The position numbers and the translations under genes were made by a program. A stretch of DNA of 37,389 nt from Gammaproteobacteria bacterium. Its GTDB lineage: Bacteria; Pseudomonadota; Gammaproteobacteria; JAKEHO01. A model generated the notes under the pieces. It was not told the origin of the DNA, searched no databases, and saw only the letters and a program-made list of their open reading frames with translations. Below are positions 24,731-37,389 of the stretch, one piece after another (within the stretch, counting starts at the first letter, position 1; every line of letters begins with the position of its first letter). The stretch lies in the NCBI GenBank assembly GCA_027296625.1, contig JAPUIX010000101.1:1-37389 (forward strand), given 5' to 3'.

Positions 24731-24793
24731 GGGTATAGCGGCGGCGTGCGAGAGGGCAGAAAACTTTCCTTTTCGTTTCCCGGCGCTATGCCC
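24731..24793. terminator. Imperfect long-loop hairpin between dolP and macro-domain gene
   Basis: GGGTATAGCG (24731-24740) can pair with CGCTATGCCC (24784-24793), a 10-bp stem with one G-T mismatch and a loop of 43 nt. It reaches the stop codon of the convergent macro-domain gene. No clear T-run follows, so a bidirectional terminator is only possible. Confidence 0.25.
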
Positions 24794-25280
24794 CGTGAAC
24801 CACTGCTTCGTAGATCCGCCTATCCTCTTCACCAAAACAGCATACAGTAATGCGCTCGAATCGGTCGTCATATTCGCGCATTACGGTCACCGCGATAAGT
24901 GCCGCGTCCTTCTTGGGGTACCCATAGGCCCCTGTGCTGATAGATGGAAAGGCAATCGTGCTGACACCGTGCTGCCGGGCAAGTTGGAATGCTCTGCGAT
25001 AACAGCCTTCAAGTAGACGGGGTTCGCCCGCACGGCCCCCTCGCCACACGGGACCTACCGTGTGAATCACCCTTTTGGCCGGTAGTTGAAACCCTGGTGT
25101 GATCTTCGCTTCTCCGGTCGGGCAACCACCTAACAATCGGCAGGCTTCTCGCAATTCTGGGCCCGCGGCCCGATGCATCGCGCCATCGACACCGCCGCCG
25201 CCAAGCAGTGTACTATTCGCCGCGTTCACAACGGCATCAACATGTAATGTTGTGATGTCAGCTTGTAAAATTTCAATCAT
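24786..25280 (-). CDS. Macro-domain protein, O-acetyl-ADP-ribose deacetylase-like
   Basis: A 164-residue stand-alone macro domain of the MacroD/YmdB type. Motifs: [20 protein letters not shown] (ADP-ribose pocket with the catalytic Asn and Asp), [45 protein letters not shown] and [14 protein letters not shown] (phosphate loop). Such enzymes remove ADP-ribose or hydrolyse O-acetyl-ADP-ribose. The ATG at 25280 has GGAGG upstream, in the 63-bp space after sspB. It is inserted between dolP and sspB, genes that I recall as adjacent in pseudomonads, so it may be an acquired passenger. No toxin partner is visible beside it. Confidence 0.92.
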
Positions 25281-25343: not shown

Positions 25344-25726
25344 TTATTTTTTAAGCCTAAGATGTGGCCGGGACACCTGCTTGTCTTTACGCTCTGAAGA
25401 GCCCGCCTTAGGCTCTTCCTCCGGAAATATCATTCCCCTGCCATTCTCCATCGCGTAAATCGCAAACACCGCATGTACAGGTACGCTGACTTGAAACGGA
25501 GAGCCACTAAATCGGGGGCTGAAATAGATCCATTCGCCCCCAAGTTCTAGATTTACAATAGCAGTCGGAAAAATATTTAGTACGACTTTCCCATCGTTGA
25601 CAAAGTCTCGGGGCACATCGGACTCTTTACCCCCTCCCCCGCGTTAACTAACAAGTACGGCGTCATGTCATTATCCAGAATCCATTCATAAAGGGCTCGC
25701 ACAAAGTAAGGACGGTTTGGCGTCAT
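25344..25726 (-). pseudogene. sspB: ClpXP specificity-enhancing factor SspB, split by a one-base frame disruption
   Basis: SspB delivers ssrA-tagged peptides to ClpXP. From an ATG at 25726 the first frame reads MTPNRPYFVRALYEWILDND, then MTPYLLVNAGEG, the canonical SspB N-terminus, but continues out of frame to a TAA at 25579-25577 (49 residues). The rest (DVPRDFVNDGKVVLNI ... FAIYAMENGRG) is in another frame, ending with RPHLRLKK, the C-terminal ClpX-binding (XB) tail. Adding one G in the run at 25630-25634 restores a 127-residue protein. It sits after sspA (143-bp gap, with a weak promoter TTGCGT/TATAGT). It could be a true pseudogene, a sequencing indel or programmed -1 slippage. Confidence 0.85.
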
Positions 25727-25869: not shown

Positions 25870-26496
25870 TCAGCTCCCAAGTTCTTTTTCTACGTCCGAT
25901 AGACTTGCCTGGAACGCGTCCCGTTCAAACAATTTCTCGCCGTAAGTGAACAACGGCTTTGCTGAAGAGGGGAGTTTCACACCATAGTGACCCAGCCGCC
26001 ACAGTAGCGGAGCCATGCAGCAATCCACTAGAGAATACTCATCTGACATAAAATACTGTTTCTGTGAAAACGTTGGTGCAATCGCCGTAAGATTGTCTCG
26101 TAAGGTCTTTCTCGCGTTGGCTGCAGCGATTTCATTTGCGCCAGCCAAATCAGGGACCAGTCCATAAAGATCGCGCATAACGCGGTAGCGCAATTGCCGA
26201 TTGTTAGCCCGCGACACCGGATCCACAGGCATCAATGGTGGGTGCGGAAAACGTTCGTCTAAATACTCCATCATAATCTGGGCGTCATACAGAACCAACT
26301 CACGGTCAATCAATGTCAGTATCGCGTTGTACGGATTAAGATCGACCAACTCTTCCGGACGTACGTCATTGTCAACATATTTGATTTCAACATTGATGCC
26401 CTTATCCGCAAGGACAATGCGCACACTGTGGCCAATCGGGCCACTTGGGTCCGAATACAGCACCATAACGGATCGTCTAGTCGCTACTGTAGCCAT
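25870..26496 (-). CDS. sspA: Stringent starvation protein A (GST-fold)
   Basis: A 208-residue glutathione-transferase-like protein that binds RNA polymerase and alters promoter use under starvation in E. coli. The N-terminal thioredoxin-like half reads VMVLYSDPSGPIGHSVRIVL, then the surface motif DLNPYNAILTLIDRELVLYD and QIMMEYLDERFPHPPLMPVDP; the C-terminal helical half ends at WRLGHYGVKLP. SspA lacks the catalytic residues of true GSTs. It lies between petC and sspB, a common gammaproteobacterial arrangement, and follows petC by 72 bp. Confidence 0.94.
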   Translation of the reverse strand: MATVATRRSVMVLYSDPSGPIGHSVRIVLADKGINVEIKYVDNDVRPEELVDLNPYNAILTLIDRELVLYDAQIMMEYLDERFPHPPLMPVDPVSRANNRQLRYRVMRDLYGLVPDLAGANEIAAANARKTLRDNLTAIAPTFSQKQYFMSDEYSLVDCCMAPLLWRLGHYGVKLPSSAKPLFTYGEKLFERDAFQASLSDVEKELGS

Positions 26497-36914: not shown

Positions 36915-37389
36915 TTAATCGAACATCAGTGCCGTTAGGATAAAGTCCAGCCCCAATATCGCTAGACTGGAATTTACAACGGTTCGTGTCGTGGCGCGGC
37001 TGATTCCCTCCGAGGTCGGCACGGTATCGTAACCCTCAAAGACGGCAATCCAAGTCACCGCAACCCCGAATACACTGCTTTTGATGACCCCATTGAAAAT
37101 GTCCTCGCGAAGATCCACATTAGCTTGCATCTGCGACCAAAACGCGCCTTCATCAACCCCGAGTAATCCCACGCCAACAAAATAACCCCCAAAGACACCG
37201 ACCGCGCTAAACATCGCGGCAAGCAATGGCATGGAAATGATCCCTGCGAGGAAACGCGGGGCCACCACCCTACGTAATGGGTCAATCGCCATCATCTCCA
37301 TGGCTGAAAGTTGCTCTGTGACCTTCATCAACCCGATTTCGGCTGTCAACGCAGATCCAGCCCGACCAGCAAATAGTAGCGCCGATACC
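36915..37389 (-). CDS. mlaE: MlaE, permease of the lipid-asymmetry ABC transporter (partial)
   Basis: C-terminal 157 residues or so of the MlaE permease; the gene runs off the right edge. The visible frame reads [20 protein letters not shown] at the start, the family's cytoplasmic coupling motif, followed by [20 protein letters not shown], several membrane segments, and the C-terminal [20 protein letters not shown]. With MlaF (expected just beyond) it forms the inner-membrane transporter. Cotranscribed with mlaD. Confidence 0.95.

Follow-up and report, generated by a model that had tools for sequence, protein, structure and literature searches.

Does a sspB gene written in two reading frames reflect a real loss of the ClpXP adaptor SspB, a flaw of the draft genome or some way of making the protein across the break? 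The question is raised by a locus in the 37,389-nucleotide stretch analysed here (the window), in which the SspB gene (PF04386) lies on the minus strand, flanked by sspA and a macro-domain gene, and is divided into two halves that use different frames. The sequence-only reading had offered a sequencing indel, a phase-variable G tract or programmed frameshifting. It was right that the halves are well kept and that their loss would remove an adaptor for ssrA-tagged proteins, but its three suggestions leave out the sspB pseudogene of a sister species, which makes a recent and real inactivation of the window copy the leading reading.

The split gene and its neighbours

The locus is made up of the following features:

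25870..26496, minus strand: sspA, intact, the upstream neighbour, with 87% identity to SspA of the congener G001
25617..25726, minus strand: N-terminal part of sspB, starting MTPNRPYFVRALYEWILDNDMTPYLLVNA... from ATG 25726 and matching PF04386 positions 2-43
25630..25640, minus strand: frame disruption GGGGGAGGGGG, in a short loop ahead of a conserved VP
25577..25616, minus strand: out-of-frame tail of the N-half reading frame, up to the stop at 25577, with no SspB resemblance past the junction
25344..25639, minus strand: C-terminal sspB part, read in the second frame, PF04386 positions 41-124, with a putative ClpX-binding-type tail (SRPHLRLKK)
24786..25280, minus strand: macro-domain protein gene, intact, the downstream neighbour, conserved in G001

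The N-half reading frame codes for 49 residues from ATG 25726 to the stop at 25577, and its match to the PF04386 profile scores 22-26 bits; the C-half, an open frame that overlaps it and ends at 25344, scores 64.5 bits. The whole domain is matched, but in two pieces (2-43 and 41-124), and the window lacks the single intact open reading frame that almost all of the 249 class genomes with SspB possess. The separate profile matches bear out the earlier description of two SspB-like halves one base out of frame, and the join falls exactly at the minus-strand positions 25630-25640 that had been given for it, where the codons of the N-half frame read GCG GGG GAG GGG GTA AAG. The C-half also matches solved SspB structures (e.g. 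1ox8, 1ox9, 1yfn and 8et3), and its last residues, SRPHLRLKK, set beside the RPxLxVVK of its relatives, would represent the ClpX-binding (XB) tail that had been recognised there. A chance origin of the split gene is excluded by its distribution, since SspB was found in 249 of the 276 class genomes and two SspB matches are listed for just two genomes, that of the window included. A match is absent in 27 of the 276, so that genomes without one are no rarity. Relatives of the C-half were sought in viral contigs as well, and none was found among those searched.

At the right end of the window, mlaE (36918-37388) runs off the stretch and apparently continues on another contig (G000:C110, L119, 5488-6102); the two contigs are therefore probably adjacent.

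Preservation, loop length and the copy of the congener

How old the break can be was approached by leave-one-out profile scoring, for which 40 intact SspBs were aligned with the window halves and an X was placed at the junction. The N-half ranked 14 of 41 from the bottom and the C-half 9 of 41, and the two halves deviate at three conserved columns, within the range of 0-5 found in intact genes. Under simulated neutral substitution, a divergence of only 5% lowered the C-half score from 103 to ~88, a loss of ~15 bits. Since both halves score like intact SspBs, any break should be recent, and the gene, if dead, would have died very recently; the view that the preserved downstream half rules out an old decay of the window copy is thus upheld.

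The lesion lies in a loop whose length is almost fixed. Between the strand ending in ..PYLLV and the conserved VP, 63 of 65 gammaproteobacterial SspBs have eight residues and the other two have seven, and the window loop has 29 nt (counting the first asparagine codon) against the 24 of the family, a net gain of five, more than a single misread base can account for. It had been proposed that one added G restores a protein of 127 residues. The arithmetic holds, but the repaired loop would have 10 residues, a length found in none of the 65 relatives, and neither a single-G error nor a single slip yields the loop length of the family. The lesion can be explained by +5 in one step, or by +6 and -1 in two.

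Comparison of the same site in close relatives, which had also been suggested, showed that the G run is not conserved, that the loop length is nearly constant, as described above, and that the copy nearest to that of the window is decayed. G001 is the sole representative of the same genus among 56 genomes searched for relatives, and the order has no other, so that this genome set holds no close outgroup with an intact sspB. Over 17.4 kb around the locus the two genomes are collinear with 75% DNA identity, and the G001 remnant is likewise flanked by sspA and the macro gene. After ~27 SspB-like codons it runs into an in-frame TGA, and its alignment with the window shows gaps of 6, 18, 5 and 1 bases. 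It matches at only 39%, over part of the C-half, in contrast with the 87% identity of SspA, and its end, RGHLTLIA, reads as a degraded ClpX-binding tail. The G001 copy is dead, a pseudogene, and on this evidence the genus is losing sspB.

The pattern of substitutions points the same way. In 11 flanking genes the mismatches between the two genomes fall 476/344/1377 on the three codon positions (63% at the third), whereas in sspB they fall 45/32/46 (37% at the third) and are evenly spread (chi-square p = 1.5e-7 for the contrast). Such a flat pattern implies that at least one of the two copies has escaped selection, and the lost constraint may sit wholly on the G001 branch. The G001 loop, with 23 nt, is one base shorter than that of the family, by an indel that differs from that of the window in the same loop. 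Modulo three the two loops deviate equally from the family length, so that one shift inherited from a common ancestor is formally conceivable; the well-kept C-half of the window, however, argues against its dating back to the species split.

Error, alternative translation or loss

An intact sspB in the organism, with a G-rich run mis-rendered by the draft, is the most serious competing reading, though it appears rather unlikely to us. It would account for two halves and a tail that score as functional SspBs normally do, for a join at GGGGGAGGGGG, which occurs just once in the window, and for a break in a draft genome of 188 contigs. Yet after a one-base repair the loop would exceed the longest one among the 65 relatives by two residues, the ten G or C runs of 6-7 that the window also holds, longer than those at the join, lie outside any gene found broken, and G001 independently shows that sspB is dispensable. 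Moreover, 53 other, non-overlapping genes (17,408 residues), compared over portions sampled from each genome, revealed no frameshift, which weakens the case for an assembly error without excluding it. Three multi-part gene matches in this comparison corresponded to stretch or contig ends and to a paralogue. Seven apparent two-frame matches were discarded, one as a paralogue pair and the others examined as shadow frames over intact genes (two of them within the syntenic stretch already aligned, and judged from that alignment); once shadow frames were removed, no two-frame match was left. A pair of paralogous reading frames ~3.8 kb apart (L112, 6231-7523 and 10046-11338) matches the same G001 protein with 61% and 85% identity.

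Some full-length SspB could still be made if the ribosome or the polymerase slipped back by one base, in a programmed or tolerated way, on the G-rich run, where re-pairing by one base backwards is conceivable for the P-site GGG (glycine) codon and beyond which the frame is preserved. As in the programmed -1 frameshifting of dnaX, the second frame overlaps the first with a backward offset of one base, and there is a purine-rich run. The window differs from dnaX in that no canonical slippery heptamer (X XXY YYZ) was found at the sspB junction, no stimulatory RNA fold above chance was found downstream of it (z -0.23, -0.66 and +0.50) and the arrangement is not conserved, being absent in G001, where sspB is dead and the G run is missing, and in the 65 class relatives, none of which has the 10-residue loop of the product. 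With neither a conserved site nor structural support nor a conserved downstream product, programmed frameshifting did not hold up, and slippage of any kind seems very unlikely. A partial SspB of 90 residues could alternatively be translated from GTG 25616, by reinitiation aided by the purine-rich run. This open frame does start with GTG and has a GGAGG-containing run ~14 bases upstream, but the spacing is long, the product would lack profile positions 1-40 and with them the opening helix and strand of the SspB fold, and the arrangement occurs in no relative (56 genomes searched; 276 class genomes), all of which renders it highly improbable. A phase-variable sspB, ON in some members of the population and OFF in others, would depend on slipped-strand switching, for which runs of five G are short. 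The junction does lie in a G-rich tract, but it holds just two such runs, and the net offset of +5 from the family and the decayed G001 copy point to plain loss. Nothing beyond the run speaks for the phase-variable tract first suggested, and we regard it as scarcely credible.

A recent and real loss of function of the window sspB is thus the probable explanation. That the organism itself carries the indel, and that it makes no full-length SspB, is our inference. In a genus where SspB has become dispensable, the gene would have been freshly inactivated by a small frame-shifting indel in the G-rich stretch of the first loop; the ribosome would read ~30 SspB residues and then a meaningless frame up to the stop at 25577, and no SspB with both a substrate-binding core and a ClpX-binding tail would be produced. 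What we find, a frame-breaking lesion within an otherwise conserved gene, has no difference in kind from recent pseudogenes generated by small frame-shifting indels, with one lesion, the rest well kept and a sister copy further decayed. With known SspBs (PF04386; 1ox8/1ox9 and 1ou8/1ou9) the gene shares the sequence of both halves, its place beside sspA and the ClpX-binding-type tail, and it differs in its broken frame and in a read-through loop of 10 residues rather than the 7-8 of the 65 relatives. The counterpoint to loss is that, judging from the state of the halves, the break must be very recent, a coincidence that needs explanation.

A literature search for sspB decay in such a genus turned up nothing. 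Neither a fresh inactivation nor an assembly error is novel in kind, and the most likely account is the ordinary loss of a dispensable gene, caught early. As a single broken gene the case is ordinary, and it serves mainly to warn that good preservation around a frameshift does not by itself indicate programmed slippage. If real, the loss offers a snapshot of an adaptor disappearing while the core of a protein quality-control pathway (tmRNA and ClpXP) stays intact, and it opens the question whether tag sequence and adaptor go together.

ClpXP, tmRNA and the ssrA tag

The window genome has a tig-clpP-clpX-lon cluster, two further clpP genes and a tmRNA, with clpX and the three clpP genes open. 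Since ClpXP and tmRNA remain, ssrA-tagged fragments would still be degraded, minus the adaptor. In G001 no match to clpX or clpP was found, and the idea that loss of ClpXP caused the death of its sspB was considered and rejected: its contig C58 starts beside the expected tig-clpP-clpX-lon operon, which, with a completeness of 87%, makes an assembly gap the likelier cause of the missing clpPX.

The tmRNA genes of the two congeneric species (G000:C158:60588-60940, L066, and G001:C66:26161-26514, L065) specify the tag (A)ANEDNYALAA, whereas (A)ANDxxY is the form that prevails in the class. The fourth tag residue is a contact in SspB-ssrA structures. SspB binds degrons containing AANDENY (PMC8512704). 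Across the class, a tag lacking D at the fourth position is commoner in genomes without a SspB match (Fisher p = 0.025, uncorrected for kinship and with ambiguous tags coded by hand), so that a link between this residue and the presence of SspB is suggestive only. One genome, G022, carries both SspB and E at this position, which indicates that the D-to-E change does not by itself abolish the use of SspB. That SspB-dependent disposal of ssrA-tagged proteins is being abandoned by the genus as one unit, with (A)ANDDNYALAA turned into (A)ANEDNYALAA within the SspB-read AAND part in both species and sspB dead in one and freshly broken in the other, is an idea that we consider unlikely.

The three clpP genes of this 2.4-Mb gammaproteobacterial genome lie at G000:C134:3998-4537, G000:C176:1917-2456 and G000:C170:63666-64205 (L183-L185), the two extra copies being located away from clpX.
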